The notes under the pieces were generated by a model that saw nothing but the letters and a program-made list of their open reading frames with translations, was not told where the DNA came from and searched no databases. Positions 4,976 to 55,780 of a DNA stretch of 64,000 nucleotides are shown here, piece by piece; within the stretch, counting starts at the first letter, position 1, and every line of letters starts with the position of its first letter. Origin of the DNA: an uncultured Gammaproteobacteria bacterium (lineage in GTDB: Bacteria; Pseudomonadota; Gammaproteobacteria; Steroidobacterales; Woeseiaceae); the NCBI GenBank assembly GCA_937899415.1, contig CALBPI010000005.1, positions 1-64,000 on the forward strand. The letters run 5' to 3'. Position numbers and translations under genes: made by a program.

Positions 4976-6015
4976 TCCTTCGAGCCTGGCCCCACGCAGG
5001 CGGCGATCACATCGCGCCCGAACGCGTCGTCACTTTCGAGCATGGCGAAGAAATCGCGGATGTAGCGGACGTTCTTCGAGCGTACCTTGTTGCTGAGCCC
5101 GTCGTGGTCTTCAAACAGAGCGATCACACCATCCTTCTTGGCCAGCATCACGGTCCGCGCTTGCTCGAAGTGTTCGGGCGCCTTGCAGATCCCGTTGAAG
5201 TAGCGCGTGCGCACATCGTTAATGGGCAGCAGCTTGGCGGGCAGCGCATAGGGCGCGTCGACGAGTCCGGAGCTGTCAAAGTCATAGGGCACGGGCACGA
5301 TCCCCTGCGCACCCTGGAACAGTTTGACGTTGTGGCAGCAACTGTCGCCGTCAGGCCCGCGGATGGTTGAGTAGTCCGTATTGCCAATCATGAGGGAGAA
5401 CAACTCAAGCAGCGCCGCCGCATCGGCATCGAGGTCGGCCGTGCCCGCGCGCTCGACCTCGAGCGCCGGTGCGTCAATACGTTCGGCCAGTGCGTCGATG
5501 TCCTCGATGAGAAAGGCATTGCGCCGCATCGATTCGCTGCCCGACGAGTCGATGTAGCGCAACTCGAGCAGCCGCGTGTCGAAGCTCGCCGGCGTCAGTA
5601 GCGCGTAGGCGCGGTAGGCCAGGTACTCCAGCATGAGGAAATCCCGGAACTGGCGTTGGCGATCACAGACGCCAACGAGCTTGAGCTTGTCCTGGCCGTC
5701 GAACAGCGTGCCCTTGAGTTCCCTCTTGATGAAATTAAGCCGCAGTGGTGGCAGGAAGCAGGCCTGACGACGCATGTTGCCGCGCTGACGAAACCGCACC
5801 TTGAATTTGATGCGGTTGCCCTCGGCGTCGTCGTACATCCACTGCCCGGTGCGCTCGCGCGACTCGCCCGTGGGGCCGTCGTCATACACCTTCGTCAGCG
5901 GGCCGCGCAGTGTCGCCTCGAGCGGCTCCTCGGCGGCGAACAGAGCATCAGCTTGTGCCGGTCCGGGCCAGGCATTCCAGACAAGCAGGGCAACAGCCAG
6001 CAGGCTAACGCGCAT
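4972..6015 (-). CDS. Exported CotH-kinase-like protein
   Basis: A 347-residue protein with a Sec signal peptide ending near AQADA (about residue 24). Motifs resemble the atypical kinase fold of CotH/HipA-like proteins: LMIGNTDYS (around 230), a downstream HN and then VPYDFDSSG (around 255), the expected positions of catalytic-loop and metal-binding residues. Several conserved Cys (CFLPP, GVCD, CC, GIC) suggest disulphides in the periplasm. The start at 6015 is chosen because AAGGGG lies nine bases upstream and the product then begins with a clean signal peptide; it overlaps the end of the upstream metallo-hydrolase by 11 bases, so the two form one transcript. Substrate unknown. Confidence 0.65.
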   Translation of the reverse strand: MRVSLLAVALLVWNAWPGPAQADALFAAEEPLEATLRGPLTKVYDDGPTGESRERTGQWMYDDAEGNRIKFKVRFRQRGNMRRQACFLPPLRLNFIKRELKGTLFDGQDKLKLVGVCDRQRQFRDFLMLEYLAYRAYALLTPASFDTRLLELRYIDSSGSESMRRNAFLIEDIDALAERIDAPALEVERAGTADLDADAAALLELFSLMIGNTDYSTIRGPDGDSCCHNVKLFQGAQGIVPVPYDFDSSGLVDAPYALPAKLLPINDVRTRYFNGICKAPEHFEQARTVMLAKKDGVIALFEDHDGLSNKVRSKNVRYIRDFFAMLESDDAFGRDVIAACVGPGSKD

Positions 6016-6979
6016 CGAAGGCCCCTTGTTTGACGAGGAATGAAAAGTCACCGACGGGATAAGTCACCGTGCCGGGCCAGGCCAACTCGGCCTCAATGTC
6101 GCCTGAACGCATGGCGTCGAAGCCCGCGAGTGCCTGCGCGAGCACGACCGGATTCGCCTCCGGTGTGTTGTGCGCCGGGAACAACGCTGTGAGCGCGGGG
6201 GCGAGCGCGACCAGGCGCGCCATGGACGCGCGATAGGCTTCGAAGTCTGTTTCGGGTGCGTAGAGCCAGATGGGCCCCATATAGAAGGTGTCGCCTGTCC
6301 AGAGATAGCCCGACGCGCGTTCGAGCAAGGCGATGGAATCGGGTGTGTGGCCCGGAATCGCGATGACTTCAAGCACGCGGCCACCCAGTTCGATGCGCGC
6401 GCCATCGTACACGCGGTCATACAACGGATACGGCCGCAGTCGATGTGAAAGGGCCTGGTAACCATCAGGCAGGCCGTGGCAGAGCGCCTGCGGCGATACC
6501 TCATCGGCAACGGCCTCGTAGGGCAGGCCCTGGCTGCGTGCGATGGCGAAGTCATCCATGGTCGAGAGAATCTCGACGAAGGCGTGATTGCCGCCCACGT
6601 GATCGGCGTGGCTGTGCGAATTTGTGACCGTCAACGGCAGGCCGGTCAGGCGGTCGACAACGCGGCGAATGTCAGCGATGCCGTTACCGGTATCGAATAA
6701 CAACGCCCGCGTGTCGCCCACGATGAGCCAGGAGATGACTTCCTGCCACTGCCAGGGCTCGTAAATCGCAAAGGTGCCCGGGCGCACTTCGTAGACCTCG
6801 AACCAATCGTCGCTGGCACCGTGCTTGTCGAGCGCCGCAAACTCGGGCCGCGGCAGGCGGTCGCAAAACGTGCCCAGCGTCGAATCGGCTTGTACAGGCG
6901 TCTCGTCCACGGCACCGCGCGTTGCGCAGGCCGATAGCAAAGCCGCGAAAAGAACAGGCACAAACACTCGGTTCGACAT
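6005..6979 (-). CDS. Metallo-beta-lactamase-fold hydrolase, lipoprotein
   Basis: A 324-residue MBL-fold enzyme with a lipoprotein signal (LLSAC, Cys18). The zinc motif is HSHADH (within TNSHSHADHVGGNH, near 132-145), with further ligands in PGHTPDS (near 210), WTGDTFY (near 230) and FPAHNTPE (near 268). This arrangement fits glyoxalase-II-like or MBL-fold phosphodiesterase and lactonase members rather than true beta-lactamases, because the HxHxDH motif is complete and there is no B1 cysteine. It heads the transcript that continues into the CotH-like gene. Substrate cannot be assigned. Confidence 0.8.
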   Translation of the reverse strand: MSNRVFVPVLFAALLSACATRGAVDETPVQADSTLGTFCDRLPRPEFAALDKHGASDDWFEVYEVRPGTFAIYEPWQWQEVISWLIVGDTRALLFDTGNGIADIRRVVDRLTGLPLTVTNSHSHADHVGGNHAFVEILSTMDDFAIARSQGLPYEAVADEVSPQALCHGLPDGYQALSHRLRPYPLYDRVYDGARIELGGRVLEVIAIPGHTPDSIALLERASGYLWTGDTFYMGPIWLYAPETDFEAYRASMARLVALAPALTALFPAHNTPEANPVVLAQALAGFDAMRSGDIEAELAWPGTVTYPVGDFSFLVKQGAFDAR

Positions 6980-16040: not shown

Positions 16041-17306
16041 ATGACGGGATTCAGCAGCAACACCAAAAGCTTTCGCTCGGTGGTGGCGGCGCTACTCTTT
16101 TGCCTGATCGGACCTCTCTCGGCCGACAACAGCATCGACAACCCCTACTTGCTCGATGACGTTCTCGATCTCTATATCGAGGACGGCGCATTCCCGTTCA
16201 TCTACGCCCGGATCGAGGACGCCAACGGTCGAGTGATCTACGAACACGAGGCCGTCGATGAGGGACTGTTGCCTGGCACCGAGGTCGACGGCCAGACCTG
16301 GATCCGCATCTGGTCGATGACCAAGCTCGTCACGATCACACTCGTCATGGACCTCGTTGAAGACGGCGTGTTGTCGCTCGATGACCCCGTCGTTGACTAC
16401 ATCCCCGAGTTTCGCGACCTGATCGTCGCAACAGCAGCCGACGGCAGCGCATTGGCGGCCGCGGGTGATGCCGCCTGCCCGCTGCGCACCGTACCGATGG
16501 CGGCGACCATGACCGTGCGCGACCTCATGAACCACACTGCGGGTTTTCACTACGCGGTCACGGGCATCGACTGTCTGGACACGCTATCGGCGGCGGCCGA
16601 TTTGCCCAGCGCGAGCAACAGCGCCGAATTCATCGATCGTATTGTCGACATCCCGCTCATCCAGCAGCCCGGCGCGGGCTACTACTACGGCACCAATACG
16701 ACCGTGCTCGGCATCGTGGCGGAACGCGCGACAGACACCTCGCTAGAGGAGCTGGTCCGAACCCGCATCACGGAACCGCTGGGCATTCGCGGACTGCGCT
16801 ACGGTCTGCCCGACGGCGCGACGCTGTTACCGCGGTTCACGGGCAACGACGGCGCGCTGCGAGAAGCGCGCCCTGGCGAGCTCGATATCTTTGGCGGCGG
16901 CCTGCCGCGCTATGACGCGAACGTCGAGCTATATCTGGGCGGCGAAGGCATGCTGGCCACGGCGGACGGCTATGCCGACTTCCTGCGCGTATTCGCCAAC
17001 GGCGGCAGGCTCAACGACTTCACCTTGCTCGAACCCGAGACCATCGCGGAGATGACGGCGCCGCACACACTCGTCGACAATCCCGACGGACACAACGGCT
17101 ACAACATTTGGGTCACGCGTGAGACCGAGGACAGTGTGGGCGGCTTGTGGCTGGGTGGCGGCTACGAAGGCACGCACTTCTGGATCGACCCTGTGCGCGG
17201 GTTTGTGGCCGTGGTCATGAGCCAAATTCACGCCGTGCCCGAGGCCGGGCAGGATCGCGACAACGCCTTTCGCGAGGCCGTCTACGAAGTCATCGTCACG
17301 CGCTAA
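16041..17306 (+). CDS. Exported serine hydrolase, class C beta-lactamase/EstB-like family
   Basis: A 421-residue member of the penicillin-binding-protein-like serine hydrolases (esterases, D-aminopeptidases, class C lactamase relatives). The nucleophile motif SMTK is at 92-95, and the second motif is YYYGTN (214-219) rather than the strict Y-x-N of AmpC. A late GGGYEGTHFWIDP takes the place of the KTG loop. An N-terminal hydrophobic stretch (13-26) should act as a signal peptide. Sequence alone does not separate esterase from peptidase or lactamase activity; an esterase or transesterase is my first guess because the third motif is not KTG. Stands alone. Confidence 0.8.
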   Translation: MTGFSSNTKSFRSVVAALLFCLIGPLSADNSIDNPYLLDDVLDLYIEDGAFPFIYARIEDANGRVIYEHEAVDEGLLPGTEVDGQTWIRIWSMTKLVTITLVMDLVEDGVLSLDDPVVDYIPEFRDLIVATAADGSALAAAGDAACPLRTVPMAATMTVRDLMNHTAGFHYAVTGIDCLDTLSAAADLPSASNSAEFIDRIVDIPLIQQPGAGYYYGTNTTVLGIVAERATDTSLEELVRTRITEPLGIRGLRYGLPDGATLLPRFTGNDGALREARPGELDIFGGGLPRYDANVELYLGGEGMLATADGYADFLRVFANGGRLNDFTLLEPETIAEMTAPHTLVDNPDGHNGYNIWVTRETEDSVGGLWLGGGYEGTHFWIDPVRGFVAVVMSQIHAVPEAGQDRDNAFREAVYEVIVTR

Positions 17307-35072: not shown

Positions 35073-36272
35073 GTGAGTGACCCGAAACGCCAGGACTACG
35101 ACGTCATCGTCATCGGCGGTGGCGCCGCGGGCCTCATGTGCGCGATCACGGCGGGCCAGCGCGGCCGCCGCGTTGTCGTGCTCGAAGGCTCGAACAAGAT
35201 CGGCAAGAAGATCCTCATGTCGGGCGGCGGGCGCTGCAACTTCACCAACCTCTACTGCGAGCCCGAGAACTTCCTTTCTTCGAATCCGCCGTTCTGCATT
35301 TCGGCACTCCGGCGTTACACGCAGTGGGACTTCATCGCGCTCGTCGAAAAACACGAGATCCCCTACCACGAGAAAACGCTGGGGCAGCTCTTTTGCGACC
35401 GCTCGTCGAAGGACATTGTCGCCATGCTGCGGGCCCAGTGTGACGACGCCGGCGTCGATATCCTCGTCGACTGCGAGATTCAAAGTGTCGCCGCGGATGT
35501 CGGCTACACAGTGACCACGAGTCTTGGCACGTTCCAGGCGCCATCGCTCGTGATCGCAACGGGCGGATTGTCGATCCCGAAGATGGGTGCGAGCGGCCTC
35601 GGCTATGAGCTCGCGCGTCAGTTCGGTCTCGAGGTTCTCGAGACCCGGGCGGGACTCGTGCCCTTTACCTTCTCGGGCCCAGCCAAGGACCTGACGGCCA
35701 GTCTCGCCGGTGTGAGTCTGCCGGCCTCGGTATTCGCGGCCGACGCACAATTTAACGAAGGCCTGCTGTTTACACACCGCGGATTGAGCGGCCCTGCGGC
35801 ACTGCAAGTCTCAAGCTACTGGCATCTGGGCGAGCCCATCTTCATCGACCTGGCACCCGACACCGATCTCGCAGGCATGTTGCTCACGCACAAGTCGCAG
35901 CAACCCCGATCGCTGCTGCGCTCCGTGTTGTCGGATATCCTCCCGCGTGCCCTGGTCACGAACCTGCAACCCTTGCTCTGGGAAGAACTCGCCGAGCTAC
36001 CCCTGGCCGAGATCTCCGACGACGCACTACGGGAGCTCGCCGAGACCCTGAGCCATTGGGCGCTGAAGCCCTCGGGCACCGAAGGCTACCGCACGGCCGA
36101 AGTCACGCTGGGGGGCGTCGACACGCGTGCGCTTTCATCGCAAACGATGGAAGTCCGCAACCAGTCCGGCCTCTACTTCATCGGCGAGGTCGTCGATGTC
36201 ACGGGGCACCTGGGCGGCTTCAATTTTCAGTGGGCCTGGGCTTCGGGGCACGCGGCTGGCGAAGTTTGCTGA
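35073..36272 (+). CDS. FAD-dependent oxidoreductase, HI0933/YhiN family
   Basis: A 399-residue flavoprotein of the HI0933-like family. The N-terminal FAD-binding Rossmann motif is VIVIGGGAAGLMCAITAGQRG (shown here in part; about 11-30), followed by the family signature KIGKKILMSGGGRCNFTN near 42-59. The closing TGHLGGFNFQWAWASGHAAG is characteristic for the C-terminal FAD-contact region. The physiological substrate of this family is not settled. It starts with GTG about 40 bases after the SGNH gene and is followed 38 bases later by the nitroreductase-like gene, so these may be one transcript. Confidence 0.9.
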   Translation: MSDPKRQDYDVIVIGGGAAGLMCAITAGQRGRRVVVLEGSNKIGKKILMSGGGRCNFTNLYCEPENFLSSNPPFCISALRRYTQWDFIALVEKHEIPYHEKTLGQLFCDRSSKDIVAMLRAQCDDAGVDILVDCEIQSVAADVGYTVTTSLGTFQAPSLVIATGGLSIPKMGASGLGYELARQFGLEVLETRAGLVPFTFSGPAKDLTASLAGVSLPASVFAADAQFNEGLLFTHRGLSGPAALQVSSYWHLGEPIFIDLAPDTDLAGMLLTHKSQQPRSLLRSVLSDILPRALVTNLQPLLWEELAELPLAEISDDALRELAETLSHWALKPSGTEGYRTAEVTLGGVDTRALSSQTMEVRNQSGLYFIGEVVDVTGHLGGFNFQWAWASGHAAGEVC

Positions 36273-36310
36273 GTGATAGGCTCAGGGCCAGGCCACAGGG
36301 GACAACACAC

Positions 36311-37462
36311 ATGGTAAGTCGCAGAGCAGTGTTGAAGACGGGCGCGGCATCCGCGGTGTTGCTGGGGCTCGGCGGCGCCTGGTGGGTCGGCACTGGCCCT
36401 GCCCAACGCGCGCGCGAGCCCTGGCGCGCGGCGGCGGCCGGGTTTGGCGATCCGCGACTCGACATCCTGGCCTACGCCATTCTCGCGCCCAATGCGCACA
36501 ACATGCAGCCCTGGCAGATTGCGCTCGACGACGCGAATGGCTTCTCGTTGTTCTGCAATCCCGAGCGTCTGCTGCCCGAGACGGATCCACCGGGTCGGCA
36601 GATCACGATCAGTTTTGGCTGCTTCCTCGAGCTCTGCCGCATGGCCGCGGCCGAGTCCGGTCTGCGCGCCGATGTCGACCTGTTTCCCGAGGGCGAGCCG
36701 CAGCCGACGCTGGATAGGCGGCCCATCGCGCGCGTCTCGTTGGTACCGGACGCCAGCGTGACGCCGGACCCACTGTTCGACACGGTCCTTGCACGGCGCA
36801 CGAATCGCATGCCGTTCGACACCGAACGCAACGTCGCCGAAGCGGACCTCGCGGCTATCGCTGCCGTTGGCGTGCCCGGTGTCGACCTCGCGGGCACCAC
36901 CGAAACCTCGCGTGTTGAGTTGCTGCGCCAGCTTGCCGTCGACGCCTGGAGCGTCGAGTGGTCCACAGATGCCACGCGGCGCGAGAGCATCGAGGTCATG
37001 CACATCGGCAAGTCCGCAGTAGATGACGCGCCCTACGGACTCTCCGTCGACGACCGCTTTACGAGCACGATGGGCATGCTGGGTGTCGTCACGCCCGAGT
37101 CGCTCGACGACCCGGAAGCGATCGCGTTTCGCGAGTCCTACGCCTACTACGAAAAAGCCTGCGCCTCGGCGACGGCCTTCGTCTGGTCGACGACGTCGCG
37201 CAACACGCGTCACCACCAGATTGCGGCAGGCCGCGCCTGGGTGCGGGCGCAGCTCATCGCCAACGCGCGCGGCATCGCGTTTCATCCGTTGAGCCAGGCG
37301 CTGCAGGAGTTTCCCGAGATGGCGCAGAACTATCGGCGTGTGCACGACCTGCTCGCGCGCGAAGATGGTGACACGGTGCAGATGCTGGCACGCGTTGGCT
37401 ACGCGCCCGCGTTGGGGCCGTCGCCGCGTCACCCGCTCGAGTCCCGGATCATCCAGACATGA
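36311..37462 (+). CDS. Tat-exported Acg-type nitroreductase-like flavoprotein
   Basis: A 383-residue protein with a twin-arginine signal (SRRAVLKTGAASAVLLGLGG). The body resembles the Acg/nitroreductase-like FMN-binding proteins: LAPNAHNMQPWQIAL near 63-77 matches the family's opening motif, and RRTNRMPFDT near 165-174 a second conserved region. Acg-type proteins lack the standard nitroreductase activity in Mycobacterium and may bind or sequester flavin. The upstream open frame is a shadow of the previous gene's end. Its stop overlaps the B1 metallo-beta-lactamase start by four bases (ATGA), implying coupled translation. Confidence 0.82.
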   Translation: MVSRRAVLKTGAASAVLLGLGGAWWVGTGPAQRAREPWRAAAAGFGDPRLDILAYAILAPNAHNMQPWQIALDDANGFSLFCNPERLLPETDPPGRQITISFGCFLELCRMAAAESGLRADVDLFPEGEPQPTLDRRPIARVSLVPDASVTPDPLFDTVLARRTNRMPFDTERNVAEADLAAIAAVGVPGVDLAGTTETSRVELLRQLAVDAWSVEWSTDATRRESIEVMHIGKSAVDDAPYGLSVDDRFTSTMGMLGVVTPESLDDPEAIAFRESYAYYEKACASATAFVWSTTSRNTRHHQIAAGRAWVRAQLIANARGIAFHPLSQALQEFPEMAQNYRRVHDLLAREDGDTVQMLARVGYAPALGPSPRHPLESRIIQT

Positions 37463-38217
37463 GAAGACTGACGGCGCGCTGCGCGGTCCTCATCTCGCTG
37501 TTCCTCTGCGGCTGCGCTACGCGAAGTGCAGACGAGCCGCAAGTCACATTCGACGAAATCGCGCCGGGGGTGTGGACGCACACGGCGTATCTCGAGATCA
37601 AACCCTGGGGACCCGTCGCGAGCAGCGGTCTCGTGGTGGTCACCGACACGCACATCGTGCTTGTGGATACTGCCTGGACCGATGCACAAACGCGCGAGAT
37701 TCTGGATTGGGCAGACACGACCTTTGGGCGACCGGTGACGGGCGCGGTCTTCACCCACGGCCACAACGACAAGATGGGCGGCGTCGCCGCCGTGCGCGAG
37801 CGCGGGATCCCCAACTACGCGAACTACCTATCGAACCGGCTTGCCGAGCGTTGGGGCCTGACCCCCGCTGCACGCGTGGTTGAGTTTGATGGTGCCGGCG
37901 AAGCTGACGCCGTCGCCGAGCTGGCACCGCTGACCCTGTTTTATCCGGGGCCCGGGCACACGGACGACAACATCGTCGTGGGCGTCAACGGTACGGAGGT
38001 GTTGTTTGTCGGCTGCCTCGTGCGTCCGGGAAGCTCGCGGACCCTGGGCAACACAAACGACGCCGACGTCGGCCATTGGGCCGACGCCGTTGTCGCTGTC
38101 ACCAGGCGGTTTCCCGAAGCGTCGCTCGTGGTGCCGAGTCACGGCGCGCCGGGATCACGCGCCCTGCTCGATCACACCATCGAATTAGCTAGGCGCGGCG
38201 CCGACCCAGCGCAATGA
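37459..38217 (+). CDS. Subclass B1 metallo-beta-lactamase, NDM-like lipoprotein
   Basis: A 252-residue enzyme with every zinc ligand of a B1 lactamase: His100, His102 and His167 for Zn1 and Asp104, Cys186 and His228 for Zn2, in the motifs THGHNDKMGG, YPGPGHTDDN, GCLV and SHGAPGSR. From memory it shares several blocks with NDM-1: VDTAWTD, DKMGG, YPGPGHT and LGN before a DAD. It also has a lipobox (LCGC, Cys19), and NDM is likewise a lipoprotein. The residue equivalent to the substrate-binding Lys224 of many B1 enzymes is Arg189. No integron, transposon or insertion sequence flanks it; it is translationally coupled to the nitroreductase-like gene, so it looks like a resident chromosomal gene. 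Beta-lactam hydrolysis is likely but unproven. Confidence 0.88.
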   Translation: MRRLTARCAVLISLFLCGCATRSADEPQVTFDEIAPGVWTHTAYLEIKPWGPVASSGLVVVTDTHIVLVDTAWTDAQTREILDWADTTFGRPVTGAVFTHGHNDKMGGVAAVRERGIPNYANYLSNRLAERWGLTPAARVVEFDGAGEADAVAELAPLTLFYPGPGHTDDNIVVGVNGTEVLFVGCLVRPGSSRTLGNTNDADVGHWADAVVAVTRRFPEASLVVPSHGAPGSRALLDHTIELARRGADPAQ

Positions 38218-38791
38218 GGCCAAGCCCCATGAGCAGCAGGGAAGCGGGCGCGGGCACGGGCGTTGAGGTCGCGACACCTGCGGTGCCACCAAAGCCGTTG
38301 AATGCGGAGCGGAACGGTGTCTCGAACGTATCGCGCGAGCAAATCGCTACGCCCTGATCGCACTGCCACTGGAACGCGCCAATCATGTTGACGGAGCCAC
38401 CCGCGTCCGTCAGCGGCGTTTCAAACACCAGCGACAACACGTTGAAGAAGCCGTCATCGAATGCGAGCAAGCCAAAGTTGCCCTCGAAATTGCCGGGGCC
38501 AAAGACGACGCCGTTCAGTGTCGACGTGAAGGTGCCACCAGCGTAGTTCGTTGCAGGCGCGGGCGCGCAGGGCGCAGGCGGCGCCTGTGTGCACAGCAAG
38601 AGATCCCCAGCCGATGCCGTGATGCTCACATCACTCGTCATGTTGGTATCTGCGTCGTAGATGAAGGTCCCGTTAACGGTGCCGTTGCCACCGATGAAGG
38701 TTGTATCCGCCAGATTCCATTCCACGGGTACAGCGTGCGCTGACGCGGCCAGGCCGAGTGCCAGCAGTGCTGAAGTGAGTGAACGTTTCAT
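38189..38791 (-). CDS. PEP-CTERM sorting-signal protein
   Basis: A 200-residue exported protein with an N-terminal signal (MKRSLTSALLALGLAASAHA) and a C-terminal exosortase sorting signal: VPAPASLLLMGLGLIALGRRR, i.e. a V-P-A-P variant of the PEP motif, a hydrophobic helix and a basic end. The mature part is Gly/Thr/Asn-rich and beta-like with three Cys (LLCTQAPPAPC and QWQCDQGVAIC). Such proteins are cut by an exosortase and are often tied to extracellular polysaccharide. No exosortase gene is in this window. The 3' end overlaps the convergent lactamase gene by 29 bases. Confidence 0.82.
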   Translation of the reverse strand: MKRSLTSALLALGLAASAHAVPVEWNLADTTFIGGNGTVNGTFIYDADTNMTSDVSITASAGDLLLCTQAPPAPCAPAPATNYAGGTFTSTLNGVVFGPGNFEGNFGLLAFDDGFFNVLSLVFETPLTDAGGSVNMIGAFQWQCDQGVAICSRDTFETPFRSAFNGFGGTAGVATSTPVPAPASLLLMGLGLIALGRRRA

Positions 38792-39081
38792 TGTTGTTTT
38801 CCAGACTGTTGTTGTGGTTTTCGCTGTATTTAAAGGCAATTTGGATACCTTAGCGCCACAAGTTACTAATTTTTATAAATTTATTGGATTCTTTGACGAC
38901 CCCTCTGCGACTCACGGGCGCTCAACTGTAAAGCCTCCCGACACCCGTAATCCGGCCTGGGTGGACGATTCGACGCGTCGTAGCAGCACAGTCATTGCTG
39001 CGGCAGAACTTGTCGCGGCGCGGGATCGGGACTAGCGTGCTCCCGGGGACGACAACAACAACAAACCTGGGGGATCGGGCC

Positions 39082-53743: not shown

Positions 53744-55780
53744 ATGACGATAACGACACTCGCCGCCTGGCTACGCGCGGCACTTTTTGCACTTTGCCTC
53801 GGGCTCGTGGCCTGTGGCGGCGGCGGCAGCGACGGCCCGCCGCCCGTAGACACCGACGGCGACGGCACGCCGGACATCTCCGATACCGATGACGACAACG
53901 ATGGTGTTGCGGACACAGCTGATGCGTTCCCGCTCGATCCCAGCGAATCTGCCGACTTCGACGGCGATGGCACGGGCGACAACGCCGACCCCGATGACGA
54001 CAACGACGGCACGGACGATGTCAATGACGCCTTTCCGTTCGACCCCAGTGAGACCGCGGACTCGGACAGTGACGGCACGGGCGACAACGCCGACGCGTTC
54101 CCCACCGACCCCAACGAGACGGCCGATTTTGACGGCGACGGTATTGGCGACAACGCCGACCCCGACGACGACAACGACGGCACCGACGACGTCAATGACG
54201 CGTTCCCCAACGACCCCGCGGAGACCCTGGACACGGACGGCGACGGCATTGGCAATAACGCGGACACCGATGACGACGGCGACACAGTCGATGACGTCAA
54301 CGACGCCTTCCCGCTGGACCCGACCGAGACAGTTGATTCGGACGCCGACGGCATCGGCAACAACGCCGACCCCGACGACGACAACGACGGCGTCGCCGAC
54401 GCGAGCGATGACTTCCCGCTGAACCCCGCGCGAACCAAGCCCATCGAGGCACTGTTCCCCGTGGTCAACGGCGAGTTCGTCCTTCCCAATACGCCCGCGG
54501 CCATGCAGATGGACTGGATCATCGACCAGTTCGCCGCGTCATCGACGTCGCTGCAGGACATTAACGACCGTTTCGACCCTGCCGCACTTGCCGCGATCTC
54601 GGACACGCAATGGCAGGCGTTCATCGACTCGCTGCGCGGCGTGATCCCGAACGGCACGATCCAGGACATCATCACGATGACGCCAACGAGCATCCGCGTG
54701 CTCGTGGGTGACGCCAACGTACCGGGCTCGGGACAGTTCATCACGCTGACGACGACCTACAACACAGGCCTGATCCTCTCGTTCGGGTCCTCGAACTTCC
54801 CGCTCAACGGCTCCTCGACGGGTGCTGCCGACGCGAACCTCACCTTCGCGACGGCCAGTGACAAGCTCGAGACCATTGCTGAGGACGTCGGCGTGCTCAT
54901 CGCCGAGATCGACGACAATAACCAGTGCACACCGATCTTCGGGCGCAACGCCGACACCGCACTGGCCACAGCCTCGATCTTCAAGGTCTGGACCATGGGC
55001 GCGGTGGCGCAGGCCATCGAGGACGGCCTCATCACGCCGGACCAGCTTGTGACGCTCGAAGCCGACAAAGAAGTGCTGGGCGGTTCGATCAACGAGGAAC
55101 CCATGGGCACGCAGATCTCTGTTCGGGATCTCGCCGCGCTCATGCTGGGCATCAGTGACAACACGGCCACGGAACACCTGTTCCGGCTCGTGGGGCGCGA
55201 CGCCAATGAGGCCATCCTGACGCAGTTCAACTACGCCAACCCTGACCTCATGCTGCCCTTCCTCTCGATGAGCGAGGCCTTCCACCTCTACTTCACGGTA
55301 CCGCTGCAGGACGCACTCGACTACCTCGTCGCGAGCGAACAGGCGCAACGTGACTACGTTGACAACGTACTCGAGCCACTGGGCCCTGTTACAAGCTTCC
55401 CGACGGCCAACCTCGAAGTGCTCGTGAAGGGCACCTGGCAGGGCAGCCCAACCGACGTGTGCAACGCCATCGCCGGCCTGCGCCAGTTCAACGATCTGAG
55501 CGAAGGCTTTGCGGTCACGGACCAGGCTTACGGTGCCGAGACGGCTGTTGTGAACCTGCGCAACAAGTGGGAGCGCGTCTGGTTCAAGGGCGGCGGGCTT
55601 AGCGACAACGGCGGCTTCCGTGTGCTGACCTACGGCTGGTTGCTTGAGACCGACAGCCGCGGTGCCTTCGTGGTCGTCGCCATGGGCAACAACGACTCAG
55701 GTGGCAGTGCACGCATCAGCCAGGGCGACTTCGCCTCGGTGGCGTCACGGCTCGTCGACATCGTTAATGAAACCAACTGA
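53744..55780 (+). CDS. Thrombospondin-type-3 repeat / class-A-beta-lactamase-like fusion lipoprotein
   Basis: A 678-residue lipoprotein (lipobox LVAC, Cys24, followed by a Gly run). Residues about 34-225 are tandem Ca2+-binding repeats of the thrombospondin-type-3/dockerin-like form, DxDxDGxxDxxDxDDDNDG, alternating with DAFPxDPxE. A linker domain (about 230-370) precedes a serine hydrolase domain related to class A lactamases and D-ala-D-ala peptidases: SIFK at 411-414, SDN at 471-473 and KGG at 615-617 in place of KTG. The Ca-rich arm probably forms a stiff stalk from the outer membrane. Good ribosome-binding site (GAGAGGGATCA). Activity could be lactamase, peptidase or esterase. Confidence 0.85.
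   Translation: MTITTLAAWLRAALFALCLGLVACGGGGSDGPPPVDTDGDGTPDISDTDDDNDGVADTADAFPLDPSESADFDGDGTGDNADPDDDNDGTDDVNDAFPFDPSETADSDSDGTGDNADAFPTDPNETADFDGDGIGDNADPDDDNDGTDDVNDAFPNDPAETLDTDGDGIGNNADTDDDGDTVDDVNDAFPLDPTETVDSDADGIGNNADPDDDNDGVADASDDFPLNPARTKPIEALFPVVNGEFVLPNTPAAMQMDWIIDQFAASSTSLQDINDRFDPAALAAISDTQWQAFIDSLRGVIPNGTIQDIITMTPTSIRVLVGDANVPGSGQFITLTTTYNTGLILSFGSSNFPLNGSSTGAADANLTFATASDKLETIAEDVGVLIAEIDDNNQCTPIFGRNADTALATASIFKVWTMGAVAQAIEDGLITPDQLVTLEADKEVLGGSINEEPMGTQISVRDLAALMLGISDNTATEHLFRLVGRDANEAILTQFNYANPDLMLPFLSMSEAFHLYFTVPLQDALDYLVASEQAQRDYVDNVLEPLGPVTSFPTANLEVLVKGTWQGSPTDVCNAIAGLRQFNDLSEGFAVTDQAYGAETAVVNLRNKWERVWFKGGGLSDNGGFRVLTYGWLLETDSRGAFVVVAMGNNDSGGSARISQGDFASVASRLVDIVNETN

Follow-up and report, generated by a model that had tools for sequence, protein, structure and literature searches.

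FIM-1 is an acquired subclass B1 metallo-beta-lactamase of Pseudomonas aeruginosa, a resistance enzyme recovered from a clinical isolate, and it is a known carbapenemase. It shares a clade with NDM-1, which was plasmid-borne in the records that we retrieved, and with two environmental B1 enzymes of solved structure, 6v54 and 6v72, whose PDB chains are named only “Beta-lactamase” and “Beta-lactamase II”; we take 6v72 to be, probably, the Erythrobacter litoralis enzyme. Environmental, chromosomal B1 enzymes are already well documented, and most of them are active. Berglund et al. reported 76 new B1 genes in 2017, chromosomal for the most part, and found that 18 of 21 B1 genes detected by sequence hydrolyzed imipenem in Escherichia coli, the other 3 being inactive (PMC5637372). 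In the same survey, NDM, FIM, VIM, and six further mobile families fell into two proteobacterial groups (PMC5637372); because group B1-2 contained six mobile families, we infer from these counts that NDM, FIM, and VIM should lie in group B1-1, for which the only chromosomal hosts in the survey were alpha- and deltaproteobacteria. On the IMP/VMB side of the tree (B1.2), SZM-1 of an Arenimonas MAG (PMC9549060) and AMM-1 of an Alteromonas mangrovi MAG (PMC12238668) are chromosomal B1 enzymes, and carbapenem resistance has been demonstrated for both.

The gene described here lies in a 64,000-nucleotide stretch of DNA (the window) from the genome of an uncultured gammaproteobacterium. As with the genes for SZM-1 and AMM-1 (PMC9549060, PMC12238668), its host is an environmental gammaproteobacterium and no mobile elements accompany it; in light of these two MAGs and the earlier survey, it joins a kind already known. 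It differs from them in its place in the FIM/NDM part of the B1 tree, to which it adds a chromosomal member from a gammaproteobacterium. The B1-1 hosts reported earlier were alpha- and deltaproteobacterial only, a range that widens with gammaproteobacterial members like this one. Judging from its sequence and setting, we consider it very probable that the gene encodes an exported, chromosomal, sporadically distributed B1 enzyme of the FIM/NDM/ElBla2 part of the tree that affords protection against beta-lactams.

Subclass B1 membership and active-site residues

An intact open reading frame at 37459-38217 on the plus strand encodes 252 amino acids (P0001) and is a real gene for a subclass B1 metallo-beta-lactamase, with the position, strand, and length given in a first-pass annotation made from the DNA letters. 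The genome (3.94 Mb in 102 contigs, 98% complete) carries no second gene of this type; its partial 16S rRNA finds its best matches among Gammaproteobacteria, at 83-87% identity. The features of the locus are listed below; we mapped the BBL numbers via NDM-1 Cys208, and the residue counts come from an alignment of 36 B1 sequences.

36314..37462, plus strand: Acg/Rv3131-family FMN-binding oxidoreductase with RR signal (NF047509, 237.6 bits, cutoff 199)
37459..37515, plus strand: putative lipoprotein signal peptide, residues 1-19, with lipobox-like L16-C17-G18-C19 (read by eye)
37756..37770, plus strand: H-G-H-N-D motif with His100 and His102 (Zn1) and Asp104 (Zn2); BBL 116, 118, and 120; ligands invariant in 36/36
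37957..37959, plus strand: His167, third Zn1 ligand, BBL 196; invariant in 36/36
38008..38010, plus strand: Val184, BBL 219, Gly in 34/36 B1 sequences (alignment column count)
38014..38016, plus strand: Cys186, Zn2 ligand, BBL 221; invariant in 36/36
38023..38025, plus strand: Arg189, BBL 224, putative carboxylate contact (alignment)
38140..38142, plus strand: His228, Zn2 ligand, BBL 263; invariant in 36/36

The protein scored 226 bits against the NCBI curated subclass B1 model NF033088 (cutoff 200), and the E value of 4e-67 puts the match well beyond chance. The best three named-family models were FIM (233.1 bits), NDM (216.6 bits), and AFM (207 bits), scores far under the family cutoffs (590 bits for FIM and 580 bits for NDM), so that the protein belongs to none of these three families. 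A PDB search returned FIM-1 at the top (E = 2.5e-67), followed by NDM variants (about 1e-63), with nearly all of the mature protein covered. The B1 assignment of the first-pass annotation is borne out by the model score, by the zinc-ligand pattern HxHxD/His/Cys/His, and by a tree that places the protein inside B1, not outside it, in a clade with support of 100/98; no non-lactamase metallo-beta-lactamase (MBL) family was preferred over B1 by profile. An MBL-fold protein encoded in the same window (6005-6979, minus strand), used as a control, failed the B3 and class B models.

All six zinc ligands had been named correctly in that annotation, as had the blocks VDTAWTD, DKMGG, YPGPGHT, and LGN, which NDM-1 matches letter for letter in the alignment; Asn198 of the LGN motif is present. 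Arg189, however, had been taken as a replacement of the Lys of B1 enzymes, and this view does not hold. Arg occupies BBL 224 in FIM-1, 6v54, and all of the genome relatives, Lys is found in NDM-1, 6v72, and IMP, and Tyr is found in VIM-2; Arg is the common state of the clade and the NDM Lys the exception, which bears on the reading of substrate-binding residues. Since FIM-1 is a carbapenemase with Arg at this position, Arg189 is no argument against activity.

The lipobox-like L16-C17-G18-C19 comes after a short hydrophobic stretch. An NDM-like lipoprotein signal had been proposed, and a lipobox-like Cys is indeed present here, as it is in the relatives L002, L003, and L032 and in NDM-1, but the Cys at lipobox position -2 is atypical (L003 likewise has L-C-S-C). 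The +2 residue, Ala, would predict sorting of the protein to the outer membrane.

Tree placement and closest relatives

A maximum-likelihood tree was built from 36 proteins, comprising the window protein, its genome relatives, sequences of solved structures, and NDM-1, VIM-2, and IMP-1 from plasmid records; it was drawn without BcII, SPM-1, AFM-1, and the myxobacterial enzymes. The window protein falls in a twelve-member clade (support 100/98). Its companions there are FIM-1 (6v3q), NDM-1, 6v54, and 6v72, along with three own-family proteins, two found in the order, and one each in the class and the phylum; VIM, IMP, DIM, VMB, and CcrA lie outside. Within the clade, 6v72 pairs with NDM-1 (100/99), and the partner of 6v54 is a relative found in a different genome of the class (100/99). 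Tests of the sister position of the window protein, with NDM (p-AU 0.59), with FIM-1 (0.29), or with the own-family enzymes (0.57), separated none of these arrangements.

Identity to the window protein is 50% for FIM-1, the highest among the characterized enzymes compared, 44% for 6v72, 43-46% for NDM-1, 43% for 6v54, 34% for VIM-2, 33% for IMP-1, and 32% for CcrA. The NDM-like label given in the first pass is therefore right as to clade, but the nearest characterized enzyme is FIM-1, NDM-1 standing at 43%. Likeness to NDM-1 consists in the shared clade, the sequence blocks cited above, and a lipoprotein-type signal; NDM-1 differs in its Lys at BBL 224. FIM-1 and the window protein both have the DKMGG, PGPGHT, and GCL-x-RP motifs and Arg at BBL 224, and they differ at BBL 219, where FIM-1 has Gly and the window protein Val184, and in setting, the one gene being acquired and clinical and the other belonging to an environmental genome. 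An identity of about 50% puts the window gene far from the direct ancestor of any clinical gene.

Among the enzymes compared, the chromosomal ones of the host's family come nearest to FIM-1 (50-55% identity), from which it could be argued that this family is a natural reservoir of the FIM branch and that FIM-1 may have originated within its order or close to it. We regard this as a long shot; 6v54 and 6v72 are nearly as near to FIM-1 (50% identity). Elsewhere in the tree, one genome of the host's order (G067) carries two different B1-type genes (L033 and L036), and a B1 protein from the host's class (L042, genome G554) pairs with VIM-2 (100/95) and may be a chromosomal relative of the VIM branch.

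Genomic neighborhood and distribution

The stop of the upstream oxidoreductase gene and the start of the B1 gene share four bases (ATGA, 37459-37462), an overlap that suggests co-transcription of the two. An overlapping, Tat-exported, nitroreductase-like gene had been described at this place; the overlap and an RR motif (SRRAVLK) are there, but the protein belongs to the Acg/Rv3131 family, and the Tat model TIGR01409 gives it 15.0, short of the cutoff of 16.7. Conservation of this neighbor was also anticipated, and here the comparison went the other way. No Acg homolog was found near the B1 gene at any of 12 B1-bearing loci. Of the other 106 family genomes, 6 have Acg homologs, and no B1 gene lies beside these in the five contexts examined. 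On the evidence of these 12 B1 and five Acg loci we reject a conserved oxidoreductase-B1 operon and regard the pairing as local to the window.

The B1 loci of relatives have no neighbors in common with the window, and none with each other except in the closely related genomes G043 and G056. No empty site could be found in relatives that lack the B1 gene, the gene order around their HI0933-like and Acg homologs differing from that in the window, and searches for a promoter or terminator gave no strong match. The B1 gene and a minus-strand gene for a PEP-CTERM-anchored exported protein (38189-38839) share 29 bases at their 3' ends. An antisense open reading frame of 401 amino acids (36227-37432, minus strand) covers the oxidoreductase gene; with a codon score close to zero, this frame is probably an artifact of high GC content.

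As the first-pass annotation had noted in finding no integron, transposon, or insertion sequence, mobile genes are lacking: Pfam scans of almost all called window genes revealed no transposase, integrase, or recombinase. Repeats flanking the B1 gene are weak and none is convincing, no copies were found on viral contigs, and plasmid-borne relatives are all less than 60% identical. The window lies on a 71.9-kb contig on which no plasmid or mobile genes were seen, which makes a chromosomal location likely. Relatives at E <= 1e-15 occur in 4 of 107 family genomes and in 9 of 396 sampled from the order, and those at E <= 1e-20 in 7 of 369 class and 11 of 398 phylum genomes; the samples overlap one another, and the window's own genome is counted in them. 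This is the distribution of a sporadic accessory gene rather than of a lineage marker.

Proposed function and alternative explanations

The reading as a protective B1 enzyme starts from what was observed of the protein's family, zinc ligands, and clade and of the gene's surroundings and distribution; how the enzyme works, which substrates it takes, its anchoring, its co-translation, and its ecological role are inferred from there. The protein, probably translated together with the Acg-family oxidoreductase, would face the periplasm, with an outer-membrane anchor probable. One zinc ion would sit on His100, His102, and His167 and the other on Asp104, Cys186, and His228; the beta-lactam ring would be opened by a water molecule activated by the pair, and Arg189 probably holds the substrate carboxylate. 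The enzyme is probably active and probably destroys penicillin- and carbapenem-type antibiotics, and its most likely role would be protection from the beta-lactams of neighboring microbes. That 3 of 21 predicted B1 genes proved inactive in the published screen weakens this reading (PMC5637372).

A related concern is that the protein has the B1 fold but is catalytically weak or specialized. Val184, two residues before the zinc ligand Cys186, is unique in the 36-sequence alignment (Gly in 34 and Ala in 1), and by replacing a near-invariant Gly beside the Zn2 ligand, it could weaken the enzyme; Gly101, between the first two His residues, might also disturb the zinc site. Gly101 is the less unusual of the two, being found in one other of the 36 sequences, and active enzymes carry quite different residues at BBL 117: NDM-1 and FIM-1 have Ala, VIM-2 and IMP-1 have Phe, and CcrA has Trp. 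With the ligands, Asn198, and flanking motifs all intact, we judge a weak or specialized enzyme unlikely. A single-sequence AlphaFold model was set aside at a pLDDT of only 50. The MBL fold is functionally diverse, and the window itself encodes another MBL-fold protein that is by profile no beta-lactamase, so a hydrolase with some other physiological substrate also has to be weighed; the B1-specific ligands Asp104 and Cys186, a score that clears the curated B1 cutoff, and a position nested in a clade of characterized carbapenemases make it highly improbable.

The alternative to long residence in the lineage is recent horizontal acquisition, which would fit a gene carried by so few family genomes at loci without common neighbors, and its codon usage deviates mildly, ranking 7th of 47 window genes in atypicality. 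Its GC content (0.66, with GC3 of 0.77) nevertheless fits that of the window (0.64 overall), mobile genes are absent nearby, and a clade with the own-family enzymes is not rejected (p-AU 0.57). Recent transfer seems to us somewhat doubtful, though it is the most credible of the alternatives weighed in this section.

The MBL-fold protein at 6005-6979 (minus strand) is lipoprotein-like, has SoxH-related quinoprotein-relay hydrolases and hydroxyacylglutathione hydrolase as its top profiles, and lies far under the B3 and class B cutoffs. A PF00144 “Beta-lactamase” family protein (16041-17306, plus strand) adjoins an NhaA-like antiporter and a LysR regulator, and its profiles suggest an esterase (AcmB-like, under cutoff) over AmpC. 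An unusual mix of thrombospondin-3 repeats, an ORF_12_N domain, and a class A beta-lactamase-like domain (PF13354), well under the class A cutoff, is encoded at 53744-55780 (plus strand).
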